Of a stretch of DNA of 64,000 bases, positions 53,627 through 64,000 are shown piece after piece. Made by a program: the position numbers and the translations under genes. Location of the stretch: contig JAUSBY010000015.1 in the NCBI GenBank assembly GCA_030651765.1, forward strand, positions 1 through 64,000, in the 5' to 3' direction. Positions within the stretch are counted from its first letter, which is position 1. Every line of letters begins with the position of its first letter. Source of the stretch: Coriobacteriia bacterium. GTDB taxonomy: Bacteria > Actinomycetota > Coriobacteriia > Anaerosomatales > Anaerosomataceae. The notes under the pieces are model-generated. The model ran no database searches. It was not told the origin of the DNA and worked only from the letters and a program-made list of their open reading frames with translations.

Positions 53627-53705
53627 GCTCCTCGTACCGCTCCCGTGGTTGGCCGAGCCGTGCTCGCCCGTGCGATGATTGGCCCGACCGGAGAGGAGCC
53701 GCCGC

Positions 53706-55046
53706 GTGCCCGAGCCCCGTCGCATAGACGCCCTGGTAGCCGAGATCGGATCGACCACCACGGTCGTGAGTGCCTTCGACGGCCTGTCCGGCTGGCCCGA
53801 TTCTACGCCCGCGCTCATCGGGCAGGGCGTAGCGCCCACAAGTGTGGCTGCCGGTGACGTGGGGATCGGCCTTGCCGCAGCGCGTGAGGCGCTCGAGGCG
53901 CAGGTCGGGCCACTCGAGCCGGGCGTCACGCTCGCCACCTCGTCGGCGGCGGGCGGTCTGCGCATGACCGTGCATGGGCTCACGCACAAGATGACCGCGA
54001 TGGCCGCACGCGAGGCGGCGCTCGGCGCCGGAGGCGTGCTCGAGTACCAGACGGCGGGCCGGCTGCGCGAGCATGATCTCGAGGAGATCGAAGAGGCGCG
54101 CCCAGGGCTCATCTTGCTCGCCGGCGGTGTGGAGGGCGGCGACACAGAGGTGGTGCTCCACAACGCGCGTCGGCTGACCGAGCTCGCAGCGCGGCCCATC
54201 GTCGTATACGCCGGCAACTCGGCGGTGGCCGCCGAGGCGCGCGCCACGCTCGAGGCGGCTGGCTTCGTCGTGCGTGTCACGGACAACGTGTATCCCGCCG
54301 TAGACGAGCTCGATATCGTGCCGGCGCGTCACGTGATCCACGACGCGTTCGAGGAACACATCACCCACGCGCCGGGCATGGAACACATCGGCGAGTACGT
54401 GAGCGGGCGCATCTTGCCCACGCCGGGCGCCGTCCTTATCGCTGCGGAGCTCCTGGCCGATGAGCTCGGCGACCTCGTGGTGGTCGACGTCGGCGGTGCT
54501 ACGAGCGACGTCCACTCGGTCACCGATGGCTCCCCCGATATCGCGGCGATCTCCACCGACCCGCAACCGCACGCAAAGCGCACCGTTGAAGGCGACCTCG
54601 GCACGTACGTGAGCGCCGCACACACGGCCGCACTCATCGGCGAGGGTGAGCGGCCCGGACACCTGCCGCCGGCGATCCCGTTCACTCCCGCCGACATCGA
54701 GGCTGCCGCGCTGCTGGCGCGCGCGGCGACGGTCACCGCGATGACGCGCCATGCGGGCCGTTTCGCGCACCTCTACACGCCGAAGGGCCGCCAGACGGTC
54801 GCGCACGGACGGGACCTCACGGCCTGCCGACTCGTCATCGGAACCGGTGGCGCGCTCGTGCGGCTCCCGGGAGGGGAGGCGGCGCTCGCCGCGACTCTCG
54901 GCGGACCCGGCGAGTATCTGCTGCCCCCCGCGGATGCCCGGGTGGCCCTCGATCACGACTACGTCTTCGCGTGCTGCGGTGCGCTCGCGTCGCGTTTCGC
55001 GCCCGGCGCGGTCGTCGCACTCATGCGCGTGAGCATCGGCGTCTAG
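53706..55046 (+). CDS. MutL/GlmL-type reactivating factor homologue
   Basis: 446-residue ASKHA-fold ATPase of the MutL/GlmL family (often annotated as glutamate mutase L). Residues IGSTTTVVSAFDG at the N-terminus form the phosphate-1 loop; VVDVGGATSDVHSV is the second loop, and IGTGGALVRLPGG lies near the C-terminus. Such proteins occur next to B12-dependent aminomutases, including in ornithine clusters, and are thought to exchange inactivated cobalamin cofactor. GTG 53706 has GAGAGGAG seven bases upstream; an in-frame TTG at 53679 precedes that site. Likely partner of OraSE (inference from family and context). Confidence 0.87.
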   Translation: MPEPRRIDALVAEIGSTTTVVSAFDGLSGWPDSTPALIGQGVAPTSVAAGDVGIGLAAAREALEAQVGPLEPGVTLATSSAAGGLRMTVHGLTHKMTAMAAREAALGAGGVLEYQTAGRLREHDLEEIEEARPGLILLAGGVEGGDTEVVLHNARRLTELAARPIVVYAGNSAVAAEARATLEAAGFVVRVTDNVYPAVDELDIVPARHVIHDAFEEHITHAPGMEHIGEYVSGRILPTPGAVLIAAELLADELGDLVVVDVGGATSDVHSVTDGSPDIAAISTDPQPHAKRTVEGDLGTYVSAAHTAALIGEGERPGHLPPAIPFTPADIEAAALLARAATVTAMTRHAGRFAHLYTPKGRQTVAHGRDLTACRLVIGTGGALVRLPGGEAALAATLGGPGEYLLPPADARVALDHDYVFACCGALASRFAPGAVVALMRVSIGV

Positions 55047-56073: not shown

Positions 56074-57930
56074 CTACACCACCCCCACCAGTCCGAGCTT
56101 CTGCAGCGTCTCCTCGGTGGGAAGTCCGCTCTCGCGGTCCCAGCCCATCGCCGCGTAGAAGCTGTCGAGTGACACGTCGAGGCGTGCGATCTGGCCCTCG
56201 CCGCGGCCATCGACCGCTGCCTCACTCGTGATGCGCCGGGGCAGCGTGTCGTCGGCTCGTGTGAGCCCGAACCGTGCATTGACGAGCCGTTCCAGGTTGA
56301 TGACCCGCTCGGCCGCCTTGAGCATGTCCTCCTTGGTCCAGGTCTCGCCGGTGGCCGCCGAGAGCACGGCCGCCCATGTGGAGGGCTGGACCGCCAGCGT
56401 GATCACGGAGAACAGACACACGCCGAGGAGGTTCGTCGCCATGGAGAACTCCATGAACGGCTTGACCCACTGCTGGTTGTCGTCGTCCAGGAAGTCGACG
56501 TCGTAGGTGAGCCCGAGCTCCTCGTTGCGGTAGCCGAACGCGTCGACGACCGATGCATATGGCCGCAGGTGGTCCGCGCCTCGCGGTGAGACCGCGTGGC
56601 TGATGCCCTCACCCTTGCTTGCCCGCACGCCACAGCTTGCGAGTTCCACACCCTTGACCTCGAACGTGTAGTCGGCCGCATCTCCGCCGAGGGCCACCGC
56701 CGCGCGCTTCGAGCCATCGGCGAGCATGTCGCCGATGCCGGTGCGGCTGGCGATCTTGTGCAGCACGTCGGGGAAGATCTCGCCGTTGCCCCAGGTGAAC
56801 TCGATGCCGCCGGTCAGCTCGGGCGTGAGGATGCCCTTCTCGTACCACTCCATCGCGATCGCGATGACCTGACCGGCCGCGATCGTGTCCAGACCGAGGT
56901 CGTTGCACAGGTGCCCGGCCACCACGATAGCGTTCAAGTCGGTGACCAGGCACTTCGCGCCGAAGGCCCCGAGTGTCTCGTACTCCGGCCCGCCTCCGGT
57001 CTCGCCGGCATGCGGCCCGGTCGTGATGGTTGTCGTGCGACCGCAGGCCACAGGGCAGCCCCAACACGCGTACGGCTTCACGTCGAGCGTCGCGTGGTAC
57101 GCCGCATGGCCGAGGGTGTCGATCGACTCGGGAAACGTCGTCCGACGCCAGTTCTGTGTCGGCAGGATGCCGAGCGCGCTGATCGAGTCGTAGAAGCTCG
57201 GCGTGCCGAACGGTTTGAGTTCGGCAGCCACGAACTCCTCGGCGAGGAACTCTTCGCGCGCCTGCTTCGCGTGTGTCTTGAGCCCCTCGGGGTCCGCGAT
57301 CGGGAGCGGCTGCGTGCCGCGCACGGCGAACGCCTTGAGGTTCTTGGCGCCCATCGCCGCTCCGCCGCCGCCGCGTCCGGCCGCGCGCTCCTTGTCGGTC
57401 ATGATTGCGGCGTACATGACGCCGTTCTCGCCTGCGGGTCCGATCGCCGCGATCTGCCAGCCTCGGCCGTCGAGCTCGGCGCGGATGGCCTCCTCGGTGT
57501 CGTGGATACCCGAGCCCCACAGGCCCATCGCATCACGGACCTCCACCGAATCGCCGTCGATCACGACGTAGACGGGGTTATCCGCGGCGCCGGTGAAGAC
57601 GATCATGTCGTAGCCGGCCTTCTTGATGGCGGGCGAGAGCTGGCCGCCCACGTTGCTCAGCCCCAGCGCCCCCGAGGCCGGCGAGCGGAACACGAAGCAC
57701 GTGCGTCCCGACGACGGCGCCGCCGTGCCGGTGAGCGGTCCTACCGCTGCGATCAACGGCTGAGAGGGATCGAGCGGAGGTGCGTCGTAGTCGACCAGGT
57801 CGGCGAACAGGCGCACGGCTGCGCCCTCGCCGCCGATGTAGTCGCGGAACCACGCCTCGGGAAGCGTGCGTTTCTCGGCAGTGCCGGTGGCCAGATCCAC
57901 CATGAGTGCTGTACCCCAGTTGCCGTTCAT
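56074..57930 (-). CDS. aor: Tungsten-dependent aldehyde:ferredoxin oxidoreductase
   Basis: 618 residues, the normal AOR length. N-terminal domain with the tungstopterin-binding pattern (AAIMTDKERAAGRGGGGAAM, MGAKNLKAFAVRG). The [4Fe-4S] cluster uses CWGCPVACGR (about residues 285-294) and the Cys of LLGVCLFS near residue 498. Oxidises aldehydes to acids with ferredoxin, or runs the reverse acid reduction. In a Stickland-type ornithine fermenter it could handle aldehydes from amino acid degradation. ATG 57930 has GGAGAGGAG six bases upstream; the longer frame is unrelated. Divergent from orr across a 163-base region. Confidence 0.94.
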   Translation of the reverse strand: MNGNWGTALMVDLATGTAEKRTLPEAWFRDYIGGEGAAVRLFADLVDYDAPPLDPSQPLIAAVGPLTGTAAPSSGRTCFVFRSPASGALGLSNVGGQLSPAIKKAGYDMIVFTGAADNPVYVVIDGDSVEVRDAMGLWGSGIHDTEEAIRAELDGRGWQIAAIGPAGENGVMYAAIMTDKERAAGRGGGGAAMGAKNLKAFAVRGTQPLPIADPEGLKTHAKQAREEFLAEEFVAAELKPFGTPSFYDSISALGILPTQNWRRTTFPESIDTLGHAAYHATLDVKPYACWGCPVACGRTTTITTGPHAGETGGGPEYETLGAFGAKCLVTDLNAIVVAGHLCNDLGLDTIAAGQVIAIAMEWYEKGILTPELTGGIEFTWGNGEIFPDVLHKIASRTGIGDMLADGSKRAAVALGGDAADYTFEVKGVELASCGVRASKGEGISHAVSPRGADHLRPYASVVDAFGYRNEELGLTYDVDFLDDDNQQWVKPFMEFSMATNLLGVCLFSVITLAVQPSTWAAVLSAATGETWTKEDMLKAAERVINLERLVNARFGLTRADDTLPRRITSEAAVDGRGEGQIARLDVSLDSFYAAMGWDRESGLPTEETLQKLGLVGVV

Positions 57931-58064
57931 CCGGGCTCCTCTCCCCAACGGGTCGGTCTCTCGTGTGCGCCGACGGTGGCGCAGCCGACTGCTTCGGGCT
58001 ACGCTCGACATGCCGCGCGCCTTCGGTCGCCGGGACGCTTCCGGCGTCGGTGGCGTGCGGGAAT

Positions 58065-58080
58065 TGTGAGCGCCTTCACA
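58065..58080. promoter_or_regulatory. Crp/Fnr-type palindrome between aor and orr
   Basis: TGTGA-N6-TCACA, a perfect consensus for a Crp-like dimer site, ending 14 bases before the orr start codon. If functional it would sit at or after the orr start site and act as a repressor site for orr, or serve the divergent aor gene. Confidence 0.45.
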
Positions 58081-58093
58081 TGAGAGGATACCC

Positions 58094-59161
58094 ATGTCCG
58101 GTCGCGCGGTAGTCACCGTTGATCTGCGCAAGGTCGCCGAGAACACGCGTCGCGTCGTCGACGCGCTCGGCGGGCGTTCGGTCATCGGCGTGACGAAGGT
58201 GACGTGTGGTTCCGCACAGGTCGCCCGCGCGATGCTCGTTGGCGGCGCAGCCGGCATCGCCGACTCGCGGCTCGAGAACCTCGCGGGTCTGCGAGCCGCC
58301 GGGATCGATGTGCCGCTGTGGCTGCTACGCGCGCCGGTTCCCGCGCTTGCCGACGAGACCGTGCGTGTCGCCGATGTCTCGCTGGAAAGCGAGGTCGAGA
58401 CGATCGAAGCGCTCGACGCGGCCGCGTATCGGCTGGGCAGACGCCACCGTGTCGTGGCGATGGTGGACCTGGGCGATCTGCGCGAAGGGATGCTGCCCGA
58501 TGCGCTGCCGACGTTCGTCGAGCGCGCCGAGTCGATGCCGAACATCGAGCTGCTCGGCATCGGTACGAGTCTGACATGCTACGGCGCGATCGTCCCGGAC
58601 GCCGAGAACCTCGGCGAACTTGTTGCGCTTACACAGTCTGCAGAAGCCCGCATCGGGCGCCGCTTGCTCGTCTCGGGCGGCATGTCGTCCTCACTGGACG
58701 CGCTCGTGGCCGGCACCCTGCCCGAGCGTATCGACAGCCTGCGTATCGGCGAGAGCATCCTGCTCGGCGTCTCCACCGTCACGCGCGAACCCATCCTCGG
58801 CCTGCACACCGATGCGATTCTGGCCTCCGCACCGGTCATCGAGGTCATGCGCAAGCCCAGCGCGCCGCACGGCACCGTCGCGCAGGACGCCTTTGGTGGC
58901 ACGCCGACGTTCCGTGACCGCGGCGAGCGGCTGCGGGCGATCTGCGCCATCGGCCATCAGGATGTGGTGCCCACCGGCATCAAGCCACTCGATTCGCGCA
59001 TCGGGGTACTCGGCGCATCGAGCGATCACCTGGTGCTGGATGTGGAGGACATGCCCGCTGCGCCGCACGTGGGTGACGAGATCGCGTTCCTGCCCGGCTA
59101 CAGTGCGACGCTCAGGCTCTTCACGTCGGCCTACGTGGAGAAGCGGTTCGTGGGCGAGTAG
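58094..59161 (+). CDS. orr: PLP-dependent ornithine racemase
   Basis: 355-residue fold-type III PLP enzyme (alanine-racemase N-terminal family). The PLP lysine is in VIGVTKVTCG (about residue 35). Later motifs GIGTSLTCYGAIVPD and IRVGESILLG-like (LRIGESILLGVST) match the ornithine racemase/YhfX branch. Converts L-ornithine to the D-form used by OraSE. ATG has GAGAGGA six bases upstream. It ends 18 bases before the promoter of the Cys-rich repeat cluster. Confidence 0.9.
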   Translation: MSGRAVVTVDLRKVAENTRRVVDALGGRSVIGVTKVTCGSAQVARAMLVGGAAGIADSRLENLAGLRAAGIDVPLWLLRAPVPALADETVRVADVSLESEVETIEALDAAAYRLGRRHRVVAMVDLGDLREGMLPDALPTFVERAESMPNIELLGIGTSLTCYGAIVPDAENLGELVALTQSAEARIGRRLLVSGGMSSSLDALVAGTLPERIDSLRIGESILLGVSTVTREPILGLHTDAILASAPVIEVMRKPSAPHGTVAQDAFGGTPTFRDRGERLRAICAIGHQDVVPTGIKPLDSRIGVLGASSDHLVLDVEDMPAAPHVGDEIAFLPGYSATLRLFTSAYVEKRFVGE

Positions 59162-59245: not shown

Positions 59246-59317
59246 ATGAGTCAGACTGCCTTGCTGCCGTCCGCAGCTATATGCGGAGGTGGCGATGAGC
59301 GAGGACCCCAGGGGTAG
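59246..59317 (+). CDS. Possible 23-codon leader ORF overlapping the Cys-repeat gene start
   Basis: ATG at 59246 with GGAGGGGGC about seven bases upstream encodes a 23-residue peptide (MSQTALLPSAAICGGGDERG...) that stops at 59315-59317, after the start of the main gene at 59295 in another frame. Either a translationally coupled leader peptide that controls precursor synthesis, or an unused start. No homology is claimed. Confidence 0.3.
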   Translation: MSQTALLPSAAICGGGDERGPQG

Positions 59318-59774
59318 CGCGGGGGAACCGGAAGAGCCGAAGGTCTTTCGGATCGCGCAGCTGCCCGCCCCGGATCGCACGGGGATGAACCGGCGCACGT
59401 TCGTGAAGGCAACCGCCGCGGGTGCGGGCGCGGGTGCGCTCGTCACGGTTCTCGGTGGATGCCTGCCGTTCTCGGCCGCCTGCGAGTGCGACGCCGAGGA
59501 CGAGAGCGGATGCACCACCCAGTCCGACGAGGAGACCGACACCGACGAGAGCATCGAGTGCGAGTGCGATGCGGTCTGCACCTGCGAGACGGTCTGCACG
59601 TGCGACAACGAGTGCAGCTGCGATGCGGTGTGCACCTGCGAAGCCGTATGCACGTGCGAGAGTGATTGCTCGTGCGACAGCGTCTGCACCTGCGAGGCGG
59701 TGTGCACCTGCGAGGGCGACTGCACGTGCGACTCCGTGGGCGGTGGCGGCGGCCACTACTGGTATCCCACCTAG
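59295..59774 (+). CDS. Tat-exported lipoprotein with ten C-x-C-[D/E]-x-x hexads; likely radical SAM substrate
   Basis: 159 residues from ATG 59295 (GGAGG five bases upstream; an in-frame GTG at 59289 is inside that site). Residues 1-30 form a hydrophilic leader (EPKVFRIAQLPAPDRTG). A twin-arginine motif (NRRTFVKAT) and a hydrophobic stretch ending in a lipobox (VLGGC, Cys56) follow. The mature part has a Cys pair (CECDAEDESGC), an acidic spacer, then ten hexads C-x-C-[D/E]-x-x (residues 89-148) and the tail GGGGGHYWYPT. Every hexad has two cysteines and an acidic residue in the same register; three 18-residue super-repeats can be aligned. Radical SAM genes follow within 31 bases. Function unknown; see findings. 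Confidence 0.9.
   Translation: MSEDPRGSAGEPEEPKVFRIAQLPAPDRTGMNRRTFVKATAAGAGAGALVTVLGGCLPFSAACECDAEDESGCTTQSDEETDTDESIECECDAVCTCETVCTCDNECSCDAVCTCEAVCTCESDCSCDSVCTCEAVCTCEGDCTCDSVGGGGGHYWYPT
59559..59738 (+). repeat. Coding tandem repeat: ten 18-bp hexad units, last nine as three 54-bp super-repeats
   Basis: One CECDAV hexad (59559-59576) precedes three 54-bp units at 59577-59630, 59631-59684 and 59685-59738. Each unit encodes C-T-C-E-x-V / C-T-C-x-x-x / C-[S/T]-C-D-x-V. Synonymous differences between units (for example Val GTC/GTA/GTG, Glu GAG/GAA) show the protein pattern is kept while DNA drifts. Confidence 0.9.
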
Positions 59775-59804
59775 CGGCTGCGACGCGTGCGGACAAAGGA
59801 ATGC

Positions 59805-61205
59805 ATGGGGATCTCCTGGCAGGCGCTCGGCGATACCGTGTTCCTGGTCTCCCGCGACGGGGACCGGCCGCTGCTCTACGCCCCGCTCCAGGGTCTCGTG
59901 CTCGAGGCCAACGATGCGTACGTCGAGCGATTCCGCGCTGCGCTGGGTGCCGACGAGGACGCAGCCCGGGCGATCGGTCTTGAGCCCGAAACGGTGGCCG
60001 ACCTCGCGCGCGTGCCCGATGAGGTCCGACGCACATTCGACCCGGTGTGGCCTGAGGTGTTCGAGCCAACGTCGGTGACGCTCTTCCTCACGCACAAGTG
60101 CACGCTCAGGTGCGTGTACTGCTACTGCGAGGGCGGCGCGGGGCGCGACATCGACTGGCCCGTACTCGAGCGTGCGGTCCGCTTCGCCCTCGACAACGCC
60201 AAGCGCCTCGGCAGGGATGCGCGCGTCGCTTTTCACGGAGGTGACGTGGGCGCATGCTGGCCGCTGTTCCGGCGCGCGGTTGAGTTCGTGGAGGCCGAGA
60301 GTGCGGCGGCGGGCGTGAAGACGTCGATGTCCATCGGCACGAACGGGTTCTATACCGAGGAGCAGGCGGCCTACATCGCCGCGCACATCGCCAGCGCGAC
60401 GGTCTCGATCGACGGCACGCCGACGGTGCACGACCGGTCGCGGATCACGCCGGGTGGAGGTCCATCGCTGGCCACCGTGCTGCGTTCGCTCGCCATCTTC
60501 GAGAGCGAGGGGCTCTCCTACTCGATCAGGATGACGGTCACGGCCGAGTCGCTGCCGGCGCTCGCCGAGAGCATGGCGTACCTGTGCGAGAACACGCACG
60601 CACGCACGATCAGAGCCGAGCCACTCTACGCACGCGGGCGTGCCACCGTCTCACACCTCCAGGCGCCAGACCCGGAGGCCTTTGTGGCAGCGTACCGCCA
60701 GGCGAGGACGGTGGCCGAACGGTACGGACGGCAGCTGACGTACTCGGGCGCGCGCATCTCAGGGCCAGCACCCGCGTTCTGCTCGTTCGCCCGGCCCACG
60801 TTCGGCGTCACGCCCGACGGGGACCTCACGTGCTGCTACGAGATCCTGCACCCGGACGACCCGCTCGCCACCGAGTTCTTCTACGGGCACATCGAGCCGG
60901 ACGGTTCGGCGATCGTCGTGGACGAGGAGCAGGTCGCCGCCATCCGGGCGGGAGCGAAGGCGCGTCGGCAGGGCTGCGCGCACTGCTTCTGTGTCTACGC
61001 GTGCGCCGGTGATTGCGCGGCCAAGACTATCGACAGCGGTCGCGGTGACGGGGAGTCCACCGGCCGGTGCGAGATCACCCGCGCACTCGTGTACGACATG
61101 CTCGGGCGCGCGCTTGCGGGCGAGGATCCCACGAGGCCGTCCCGCGATACCCCCCGCGCGGCACCCGGCGCCGTTGGCCCGCACATTCGCGTGGAGCAGT
61201 CCTGA
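59805..61205 (+). CDS. Radical SAM/SPASM-type maturase 1
   Basis: 466 residues. Starts at ATG 59805 with AAAGGA four bases upstream; an in-frame GTG at 59787 is possible. Residues ~1-90 form an N-terminal domain that may bind the precursor. The radical SAM [4Fe-4S] motif CTLRCVYC (CxxxCxxC) is near residue 102. The C-terminal half has SPASM-like cysteines (CSFARPTFGVTPDGDLTCC; CAHCFCVYACAGDC; a last Cys in GRCEITR). SPASM enzymes carry extra Fe-S clusters and modify peptides, for example by thioether bond formation. Lies 30 bases after the repeat lipoprotein gene, which is its probable substrate. Confidence 0.92.
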   Translation: MGISWQALGDTVFLVSRDGDRPLLYAPLQGLVLEANDAYVERFRAALGADEDAARAIGLEPETVADLARVPDEVRRTFDPVWPEVFEPTSVTLFLTHKCTLRCVYCYCEGGAGRDIDWPVLERAVRFALDNAKRLGRDARVAFHGGDVGACWPLFRRAVEFVEAESAAAGVKTSMSIGTNGFYTEEQAAYIAAHIASATVSIDGTPTVHDRSRITPGGGPSLATVLRSLAIFESEGLSYSIRMTVTAESLPALAESMAYLCENTHARTIRAEPLYARGRATVSHLQAPDPEAFVAAYRQARTVAERYGRQLTYSGARISGPAPAFCSFARPTFGVTPDGDLTCCYEILHPDDPLATEFFYGHIEPDGSAIVVDEEQVAAIRAGAKARRQGCAHCFCVYACAGDCAAKTIDSGRGDGESTGRCEITRALVYDMLGRALAGEDPTRPSRDTPRAAPGAVGPHIRVEQS

Positions 61206-62290
61206 TGGCCGGCATGCCGGCCGAGTTCGTGCCGGAGTGCCTCACGGTCTTCCGCTCCAATGAGTGCAACCTCGCATGCCGCTACTGTCACGCGTCGCCC
61301 GGCACCGCGTCGGGCCCGCCGATCTCGGATCGCGTCCTCGCCGATGCCGCGGACATCGTGGCCGGTTCGTGCGCGCGTCACGGTATCGCGATGACCTTCG
61401 CGCTCCTTGGCGGTGGTGAGCCGCTGCTCGACCGCGCGGACGCCGCGCGCATACTCGGCATCCTGCGCGAGCGTGCAGCGGCGGCGGGCGTGCCGCTGCG
61501 CACCTACGTCGCCACCAACGGCGTCGTGCCCGAGGAGACCGTCCGGTGGGCGGCGGCCGAGTTCGACCTCATCGGCCTCTCCTGCGACGGCCCGCCCGCC
61601 GTCCAGGACGCGCAGCGTCCGACCCGCGGAGGAGGGCCGAGCTCGCCGCACATCGAACGCGCGGCTGCCGCGCTGCGCGAGTCCGGGAGGCCCTTCCACG
61701 TCCGGGCGACGGTGACCGCCGACTCGCTCGGGATGCAGTCGGACGTCGTCGCGTACGCCGTCGGCACGCTGGGGGCCGCCGAGGTGCGTCTGGAGCCGGT
61801 CTACGCGAACCCCGGCGCCACTCCGCAGTTCACGGCCGACGATGCCGATGCGTTCTGCGACGGCTTCCTCGCCGCGCGGCGCGCGGGTGCCGAGCTCGGC
61901 GTGCCCGTGACCACCTCGCTCATGCGCCCGAACGAGGCGCACGGCCCGCACTGCAACGTGCTGCGGGGCGTGGTGAATCTCACGCCCGACGGAATCGCCA
62001 CCGGGTGCTTCCTCGAGTCGCGTGCCGAGGGCATCGATGCCCGGCGCGTCCGCGTGGGTGGCATCCACCCGGTCACCGGCCGCTTCGAACTCGACTCTGC
62101 ACGGGTCGCTGAGCTTGCGGCCGCGTGCGGTCGCGTGCCCGAGGAGTGCCGCGACTGCCCTCTCGAGGACGCGTGCTCGAGGGCATGTCCTGACATCTGC
62201 ATGCTCGGCACCGGCTCCGGCGCGCCGCATCAGGGCACGTTTCGCTGCAGGGTGCAGCTGCGTCTGGCGGCAGAGGCGGTGCGCGCATGA
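61205..62290 (+). CDS. Radical SAM/SPASM-type maturase 2
   Basis: 361 residues beginning at the ATG that shares one base with the previous stop (TGATG). The radical SAM motif is CNLACRYC near residue 20, so there is no N-terminal extension, unlike maturase 1. A glycine-rich SAM-binding segment (LLGGGEPLL) and SPASM-like cysteines (PHCNVLRG, CRDCPLEDACSRACPDIC, FRCRVQ) are present. ATGA overlap with the next gene. Predicted to act on the Cys-repeat lipoprotein or to cooperate with maturase 1. Confidence 0.9.
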   Translation: MAGMPAEFVPECLTVFRSNECNLACRYCHASPGTASGPPISDRVLADAADIVAGSCARHGIAMTFALLGGGEPLLDRADAARILGILRERAAAAGVPLRTYVATNGVVPEETVRWAAAEFDLIGLSCDGPPAVQDAQRPTRGGGPSSPHIERAAAALRESGRPFHVRATVTADSLGMQSDVVAYAVGTLGAAEVRLEPVYANPGATPQFTADDADAFCDGFLAARRAGAELGVPVTTSLMRPNEAHGPHCNVLRGVVNLTPDGIATGCFLESRAEGIDARRVRVGGIHPVTGRFELDSARVAELAAACGRVPEECRDCPLEDACSRACPDICMLGTGSGAPHQGTFRCRVQLRLAAEAVRA

Positions 62291-63678
62291 CGACGATGCC
62301 ACCGACCATCGACCCGGACGAGGTCTACGCGCTCCCGCTCGCCGACCGCTGGATGCTCTTCGCGCCGGCCACCTGGAGCGTGGCGGTCGTGAACCGCGCC
62401 GCACTCGGCGGGCTTGCCGAGTGCGTGGGGCCGAAACGCCAGGCGCCCTCCCTCGATGCGCTCGACCTCTGGCAGACGCTGACCGTCGCGGTGCCGGGCG
62501 CGGCGGACCACCGCGGGCGCGACGAGGACAAGCTCGTCATCATGCCCACGCGGGCGTGCAACATCCGGTGCCTCCACTGTGACTTCGGCTCGGATGATGC
62601 GCCGATCACCGTGCTCGACCCGCGCCTCACGTACCCGCTCATCGATCGGCTGGCCGCCGAACTCCGCCGCAAGCGCGAGCACACCATGCGGGTGCACTTC
62701 TTCGGCGGCGAGCCGCTTGTGGCGCGTCGGGCGGTGGAGAACATCGTCGCGTACACGCGCTCGGCGTGCGCGAAGGCCGGGCTCGTGCCCGCATTCGAAC
62801 TCACCACCAACGGCGTTTGCGATGCCGAGACTGCGATGTTCCTCGGCGACGAGATCGACTCGGTGGTCATCTCGATCGAGGGAGATGAGGTGCTGCACGA
62901 CGGCATCCGGCGCCATCGCGACGGTCGCGGGACGTACGCCGAGGTGGCAGCCACGATCCGGCGACTCGGCAGGTATCCCGCCGAGGTCTGTCTGCGCACG
63001 TGCGTGACGAACCGCTCGGTGGATGCGATGCCTGAGATCGCCGAGCACTTCTGCCGCGAGTTCACGTTCGACGTACTCGCCTTCGAGATGCTCGTGGAGA
63101 CCCCGCGCGGCGTCGAGGCGGGTCTGCGCGCACCCGACCCGTACGCCTTCGCCAGCGGAGTGATGGCTGCCGAAGCGGTCGCTGCCGAACACGGGGTACG
63201 CGTGGTGCACAGCACTTCGGAACTGGTGGGACCGCGAACCACGTCGTGTCCGCTCGGCCGCGGCACGCTGATGCTCTGGCCGGACGGTTCGATCACCGCC
63301 TGCTATCTCGATCCCGGGCGGTGGCGCGCCAACGGGCTCGAGCTGTCGCTCGGGCGGGTGGACGCCACCGGCGCCGTGCGGCTCAACACGCGGCGCCTGG
63401 GCGCGATCGCGCGGGCGATCACCGTCAAGCCACGGTGCGAGCGGTGCTTCTGCAGGTACACGTGCGCGGGTGGGTGCCACGTGGAGCAGACGCCGCCCGG
63501 CTGCTCGCCCGAGTACGACGACCGGTGCCGGGCCATTCGCCTCATCACGGCGAGCCGGCTGCTCGCGAGCATCGGAGATGCCGCCGATGCGGCGCGGATG
63601 CTTGCGCGGCCGGCTGCAGCCGAGGCGCTCGCGCTCAACGCCGACGACCGCCTGCGCAGCTGGGCGAAGACGTGGTGA
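62287..63678 (+). CDS. Radical SAM/SPASM-type maturase 3
   Basis: 463 residues. N-terminal ~85 residues precede the radical SAM motif CNIRCLHC (near residue 97); FFGGEPLV is the SAM-binding Gly motif. SPASM-like cysteines occur at CPLGRGTLMLWPDGSITAC, CERCFCRYTCAGGC and CSPEYDDRC. The CFC-YxCAGxC pattern is shared with maturase 1, suggesting the two are paralogues that diverged. Start ATG overlaps the previous stop by four bases. Confidence 0.9.
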   Translation: MTTMPPTIDPDEVYALPLADRWMLFAPATWSVAVVNRAALGGLAECVGPKRQAPSLDALDLWQTLTVAVPGAADHRGRDEDKLVIMPTRACNIRCLHCDFGSDDAPITVLDPRLTYPLIDRLAAELRRKREHTMRVHFFGGEPLVARRAVENIVAYTRSACAKAGLVPAFELTTNGVCDAETAMFLGDEIDSVVISIEGDEVLHDGIRRHRDGRGTYAEVAATIRRLGRYPAEVCLRTCVTNRSVDAMPEIAEHFCREFTFDVLAFEMLVETPRGVEAGLRAPDPYAFASGVMAAEAVAAEHGVRVVHSTSELVGPRTTSCPLGRGTLMLWPDGSITACYLDPGRWRANGLELSLGRVDATGAVRLNTRRLGAIARAITVKPRCERCFCRYTCAGGCHVEQTPPGCSPEYDDRCRAIRLITASRLLASIGDAADAARMLARPAAAEALALNADDRLRSWAKTW

Positions 63679-63685
63679 GGCCGCC

Positions 63686-64000
63686 GTGGCGAACCTGTCC
63701 GTGACGCGCCGCTGCGAGCGCGCCTGCCCCTTCTGCTTCGCCGCCGACGAGCGTGCGACGGGCCCGCTCGACATGAGCGCCGATGTCTTCGAGGCCGCAC
63801 TCGACTTCCTCGAGCGGTCGGGTGTCCCCGACGCGCGCCTCCTCGGCGGCGAGCCGATGCTCCACCCGGCGTTCGCCTCGCTCGCTGACCGCGCCCTCGA
63901 GCGCGGCTTCGCGCTGACGGTGATGACCGGCGGGCTCGTGCCCGAGGTGGCGGTCGCGCATCTGACGACGCTTCCCGCCGGGCGGGTGAGGGTCTTCCTC
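63686..64000 (+). CDS. Radical SAM protein 4 (cut by window end)
   Basis: First 105 codons of a further radical SAM protein, starting at GTG 63686 with GTGAGG six bases upstream. The CxxxCxxC motif CERACPFC lies within the first 20 residues and LLGGEPMLHP is the SAM-binding Gly motif. The frame stays open to the window end, so the presence of a SPASM domain cannot be judged. Separated from maturase 3 by only seven bases, so it belongs to the same operon. Confidence 0.85.
   Translation, partial: MANLSVTRRCERACPFCFAADERATGPLDMSADVFEAALDFLERSGVPDARLLGGEPMLHPAFASLADRALERGFALTVMTGGLVPEVAVAHLTTLPAGRVRVFL

Follow-up and report, generated by a model that had tools for sequence, protein, structure and literature searches.

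Known radical S-adenosylmethionine (SAM) maturases of ribosomally synthesized and post-translationally modified peptides (RiPPs) act mostly on small peptides, and in the SCIFF family the resulting thioether links end on Thr. PapB, a SPASM maturase, links Cys to Asp in the arrangement Cys-Xn-Asp (n=0-6), in line or nested, and also accepts Glu (PMC9413430). QhpD forms three Cys-to-Asp/Glu links in a protein subunit, and QhpG adds an O2-dependent Trp dihydroxylation (PMC7876137). UbiU and UbiV, members of the U32 family, are [4Fe-4S]-binding proteins without which O2-independent hydroxylation does not proceed (PMC6747719). Here we describe an operon at the 3' end of a 64,000-nucleotide stretch of contig JAUSBY010000015.1 (the window, meaning the whole stretch that was analysed) from a Coriobacteriia bacterium (GCA_030651765.1), the genome of which comprises 2.26 Mb in 15 contigs. 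Its seven genes encode a precursor lipoprotein with a run of CxC hexads, four radical SAM enzymes (rS1 to rS4), a U32-like protein and a HemN/HutW-type radical SAM enzyme. Judged from its sequence and its genomic company, the precursor is probably a radical-SAM-matured, RiPP-like surface lipoprotein that is chemically modified by the enzymes of its own operon.

The precursor gene lies on the plus strand (59295..59774, from the ATG at 59295 to a stop ending at 59774) and encodes 159 residues: a leader (1-32) with the conserved N-terminal stretch EEPKVFRIAQ, twin arginines (33-34), a lipobox, LGGC, that ends at Cys56, an acidic linker (57-88), the hexads (89-148; 59559..59738, plus strand) and a tail, GGGGG-HYWYP-T. 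There are exactly ten contiguous hexads of the form C-x-C-[DE]-x-x, which read CECDAV, CTCETV, CTCDNE, CSCDAV, CTCEAV, CTCESD, CSCDSV, CTCEAV, CTCEGD and CTCDSV; on direct reading, every third one ends in two polar residues and not in xV, giving an 18-residue super-period. The twin-arginine model TIGR01409 matches above its cut-off (20 versus 16.7 bits), Pfam TAT_signal scores just under its own (21.8 versus 22.7 bits), and both TatC and lipoprotein signal peptidase (Lsp) are found in the genome. The precursor therefore has the signal, lipobox and cellular machinery of a twin-arginine translocation (Tat) lipoprotein, for which export and lipidation are predicted, and the original prediction of a Tat-signal lipoprotein with ten consecutive hexads is borne out. 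No known family covers anything beyond the Tat signal, and the precursor has no match to the SCIFF family. Its AlphaFold model (mean predicted local distance difference test score, pLDDT, 39.5) is too poor to inform. Heme c binding was considered and rejected, as the sequence is without CxxCH.

The remaining genes follow on the same strand. The first, rS1 (59805..61205), is a radical SAM/SPASM enzyme by family searches and solved-structure match, and the counterpart of a maturase in the sister system described below. Its stop is overlapped by the start of rS2 (61205..62290), a radical SAM/SPASM enzyme without N-terminal extension, which precedes rS3 (62287..63678), a third such enzyme with an N-terminal extension. 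In rS4 (63686..64654, of which only 63686..64000 is inside the window) the C-terminal cysteines are of a variant, Twitch/SPASM-like kind, spaced CX2CX7CX3C. Beyond the window lie the U32-like gene (64661-65608) and the HemN/HutW-type gene (65605-66966). A scan for promoters and terminators found none. All of rS1-rS4 match Pfam PF04055 above its cut-off, and rS1, rS2 and rS3 each carry the radical SAM motif and the full SPASM pattern expected of the PapB family (CX2CX5CX3C plus the last Cys) in 5/5 orthologues. Four tightly packed radical SAM genes, three with SPASM-like cysteines, had been read from the window; that reading holds for the enzymes it named, but the operon it described was incomplete, since five radical SAM enzymes and a U32-like protein belong to it.

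PapB is the top NCBIfam match of both rS1 (98 bits) and rS3 (97 bits); the nif11 maturase, QhpD and the SCIFF maturase come close behind, and the nearest solved structure to rS1 is CteB (E 1.9e-20). The seventh protein has the motif CX3CX2CXC and best matches HutW (179 bits, below the TIGR04107 HutW/ChuW cut-off of 400), HemN and NocN; its solved relatives are HemN (1olt) and the methyltransferase NocN (9p2u). A profile built from the U32-like protein reaches true U32 proteins at E values down to 3e-7.

Five genomes, all from a single GTDB family of Coriobacteriia, have the same seven genes in identical order: when each protein was compared by tblastn with four relatives, all seven were recovered in order in each. 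The named close relatives, all metagenome-assembled genomes, are Actinobacteria bacterium UBA2272, Anaerosomatales bacterium Yes46-06 and Coriobacteriia bacterium ZodW_Metabat.125, so that the host too is an uncultured member of the class, probably of Anaerosomatales. Among the five operons the enzymes align at 59-97% identity. The precursor is the most variable member, with 10, 9, 10, 3 and 3 hexads or CxC units per genome; kept throughout are the leader, the position of the twin arginines (RR-x-F at 33-36 in 5/5), the lipobox (Cys at 55-56 in 5/5, in the variants VLGGC, SMTGC, MLSGC and IVGGC), the last CTC unit and the HYWYP tail. Comparison with the congener of this genome shows 8 synonymous and 1 replacement codon changes in the hexads against 1 and 6 in the linker; the numbers are small but lean towards selection on the hexads. 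Because their synonymous codons differ, the hexads are not fresh DNA copies of one another. An exact DNA pattern of 2.5 hexads occurs in 3/396 genomes of a phylum sample, namely this one and two others, where it falls in Cys-Asp runs or in a short Cys-rich frame; this rarity, together with the mostly synonymous changes, argues that the array did not arise by chance.

The U32-like protein, used as a marker at E<=1e-20, was found in only these 5 of 398 genomes of the class, the same five that hold a full-length precursor. Thus, at least in this class, the precursor is not widespread without the enzymes. A full-length lipoprotein lacking radical SAM neighbours, the wide occurrence of which had been named beforehand as evidence against the proposal, was never found (neighbours in 5/5 genomes). 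Weak precursor-profile matches in >100 genomes mostly cover its Tat-signal region. Where CxC patterns turned up in large actinomycete genomes, in an NAD-synthetase-like protein and elsewhere, they had no rS1 relative within 1.5 kb on either side and were taken as chance.

The sister system (system 2, the window's operon being system 1) occurs in three other families of Coriobacteriia and was found through precursor-profile matches to CxC-rich proteins. Its precursors carry CxC repeats without a Tat signal, share the leader LPKPQIEIIVDGNSxFKP and the ending SCG[SA]PCxCVPVH, and have their hexads broken up by linkers. One SPASM enzyme lies directly 5' of the precursor in 11/11 loci. This maturase is 32% identical to rS1 over 425 columns (hhalign probability 100) and groups with it at 91/90 support in a tree without outside maturase families. 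Two further loci, one from yet another family, also pair a CxC peptide with an rS1 counterpart. On the 3' side follow a TPR lipoprotein, a B12-binding radical SAM enzyme (best match BchE) and a U32 protein. The full set is present in 9/11 loci; L056 is cut short by its contig end, and the last two genes were not found in place in L058. The sister U32 protein passes Pfam PF01136 (45.5 versus 22.4 bits), has UbiU as its only NCBIfam match and shows CX6C spacing. On sequence grounds, then, two operon types combine CxC repeats and an rS1-type maturase with a U32 protein and a second type of radical SAM enzyme. The TPR lipoprotein (L050 9384-10754, with counterparts in L051-L060), which is encoded after the CxC peptide and ahead of the B12 radical SAM gene and matches no NCBIfam family, may anchor or carry the product, standing in for the system-1 fusion to a Tat lipoprotein. 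In L055 (10067-11367) the rS1 counterpart matches as two pieces in different frames, through sequencing error or decay.

Based upon these features, we propose that the conserved 32-residue region before the twin arginines serves as a recognition leader, and that rS1, with rS2 and rS3, would install thioethers in the cytoplasm, from hexad Cys to D/E at position 4 or T/S at position 2. Further changes would be added by rS4, the U32-like protein and the HemN-type enzyme. The role of UbiU/UbiV makes O2-independent hydroxylation a reasonable candidate job for the operon U32 proteins, and methylation is a candidate for the HemN-type enzyme. Since radical SAM enzymes work in the cytoplasm, modification would precede export, and Tat, as a carrier of folded proteins, is a fitting route for the finished, modified protein. 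Signal peptidase II would then cut off the 55-residue leader and signal together, with lipidation of Cys56. The domain that remains, cross-linked but perhaps still rich in thiols, would sit at the cell surface on an acidic spacer. Our guess is that it takes part in redox reactions or metal handling at the cell envelope of its anaerobic host. This outline agrees with the earlier picture of a modified, Tat-exported, lipid-anchored protein, which the conserved signal and lipobox and the presence of TatC and Lsp support, but its Asp/Glu acceptor is only one of two candidates, and its surface rod is not supported: the repeats fall to three in two genomes, the sister hexads are interrupted, and the model is uninformative. 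A continuous left-handed beta-helix, in which the 18-residue period would equal three hexads, was also considered; the interrupted system-2 hexads and the three-unit precursors argue against it. A far bolder idea, to which we give little credence, is that a U32-type O2-independent hydroxylase and radical SAM cross-linkers act on the CxC repeats to build a protein-derived surface redox cofactor by an anaerobic route, in a new protein class; it would be an anoxic counterpart of the QhpD/QhpG pathway, possibly involving the invariant system-1 HYWYP tail. As a target common to both systems that tail was rejected, since the sister precursors have a different ending.

Several observations weigh against the interpretation as a radical-SAM-matured lipoprotein, and some bear on the linkage chemistry in particular. 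The acceptor is not fixed: among 126 CxC units of both systems, 110 have T/S at position 2 and 95 have D/E at position 4, and therefore Asp/Glu (PapB/QhpD-like) and Thr/Ser (SCIFF-like) acceptors are both possible. Each hexad offers two cysteines to one D/E, so that at most half could use D/E. Likeness among SPASM enzymes is a poor predictor of chemistry, and no enzyme of the operon reaches a curated NCBIfam maturase cut-off: PapB (NF047865) demands 340 bits, to which rS2 comes no closer than 61; the SCIFF maturase (TIGR03974) demands 425 bits, where rS1-rS3 score 63-84 and no SCIFF peptide adjoins; and QhpD (TIGR03906) demands 453 bits against scores of 49-84, with no qhp neighbours among the genes read around the operon. 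The U32 assignment of the system-1 protein is only moderately supported. The copy in the window's operon scores 19.6 bits on PF01136, below the gathering score of 22.4; Pfam U32 is matched in 4/5 members at E<=0.05 (best E 2.4e-4); the AlphaFold model of the protein, with a mean pLDDT of 44.5, is too poor to inform; and a profile comparison of the system-1 and sister U32 proteins gave no match, for which reason we link the two by family only and do not claim common descent.

Thioethers nevertheless remain the best guess for the product of a radical-SAM-matured precursor, because PapB and QhpD, related to the operon enzymes by family match, make Cys-to-Asp/Glu links. Such links throughout the hexads, as in the original prediction, are favoured by the PapB matches of rS1 and rS3 and, more broadly, by the presence of thioether maturases among the best matches of the SPASM enzymes, by D/E at position 4 in 33/37 system-1 units, and by a geometry that is feasible given the spacings, nesting and Glu acceptance of PapB (PMC9413430). 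The low scores, the conservation of position 2, which is at least as strong, the shortage of acids, and V or N at position 4 in two of the three units of each short precursor (G006 and G013), with V/N/L in 27/89 system-2 units, leave this specific form a tentative possibility. SCIFF-type links from Cys to the Thr/Ser between paired cysteines, or in a neighbouring hexad, would suit the T/S at position 2 and the likeness of rS1 to CteB, a SCIFF maturase; we consider them unlikely, since rS1 and rS3 score higher on the PapB model and some units have E or A at position 2. The precursor could instead be a metallothionein-like or Fe-S/metal-binding lipoprotein, the radical SAM enzymes acting on another substrate. 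With 33% Cys in CxC spacing it does resemble metal-binding proteins, and Tat often exports cofactor-loaded proteins, but the system-1 precursor was not found without the enzymes, every sister CxC gene directly adjoins an rS1 counterpart, and neither operon offers another candidate substrate, which makes this alternative unlikely. Finally, the U32 protein may be a leader peptidase and not a modifying enzyme. The family is named as one of peptidases, and the cytoplasmic sister precursor would require leader removal; yet signal peptidase II can take off the system-1 leader, both U32 proteins have conserved cysteines, and UbiU/UbiV, which have been characterised, are Fe-S proteins needed for hydroxylation without O2 (PMC6747719), so that we hold a peptidase role to be somewhat unlikely.

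Upstream of the operon, a GlmL-related ornithine degradation protein (window 53679-55046; NCBIfam Or-4, 502 bits versus a cut-off of 600) and an ornithine racemase-like gene (58094-59161; 358 bits versus 480) are probably ornithine fermentation genes outside the operon. The racemase was rejected as an operon member, being ~4 kb away in G006 and not found in the G013 stretch examined. An aldehyde ferredoxin oxidoreductase-like open reading frame lies on the minus strand (56074-58560); its true start is probably internal because the family match begins ~210 residues in. In two genomes a large secreted protein that by eye resembles M6-type metalloproteases is encoded close to the operon (L014 5110-7395 and L003 16481-18826), once upstream of it and once downstream.

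Compared with described systems, the operon follows the logic of radical-SAM RiPPs, and judged by sequence no known family fits it by that family's own criteria. Among open-licence papers we found nothing linking ranthipeptide, twin-arginine and radical SAM, nothing relevant linking U32, radical SAM and RiPP, and nothing linking Coriobacteriia, radical SAM and RiPP. PapA/PapB (freyrasin) and the ranthipeptides share with it a SPASM maturase and a Cys-rich substrate with repeated Cys and Asp/Glu motifs; here, however, the substrate is a Tat lipoprotein with CxC hexads, accompanied by five radical SAM enzymes and a U32-like protein. SCIFF and CteB share a thioether-forming SPASM enzyme, CteB being the best solved relative of rS1, but SCIFF is a small six-Cys peptide and not a lipoprotein, and we know of no U32 partner for it. 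The quinohemoprotein amine dehydrogenase (QHNDH) gamma-subunit QhpC, with QhpD and QhpG, offers SPASM cross-linking before export and a further oxidative enzyme in the operon; it differs in the QhpE protease that takes the leader, the O2-dependent flavin hydroxylase QhpG and the cysteine tryptophylquinone (CTQ) cofactor, and none of these genes is present here. UbiU/UbiV resemble the sister U32 protein in family match and CX6C spacing, whereas here U32 proteins sit in peptide-modifying operons and the system-1 protein is very divergent. Similarly, the seventh protein resembles HemN, HutW(ChuW) and NocN in its cysteine motif and has them as best matches, but its setting is a peptide-modifying operon and not one for thiopeptide synthesis or heme degradation. 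Here up to five radical SAM enzymes appear to act on a Tat-exported lipoprotein, which suggests a class of anaerobe surface proteins that proteomics would miss because their masses are altered. Peptide modification by U32 proteins becomes directly testable with two operon types that pair CxC repeats, an rS1-type maturase and a U32 protein. Among radical-SAM-modified RiPP-like proteins, a Tat-lipoprotein substrate with a U32 partner is unusual, and the two operon types point to an undescribed class of modified bacterial proteins.
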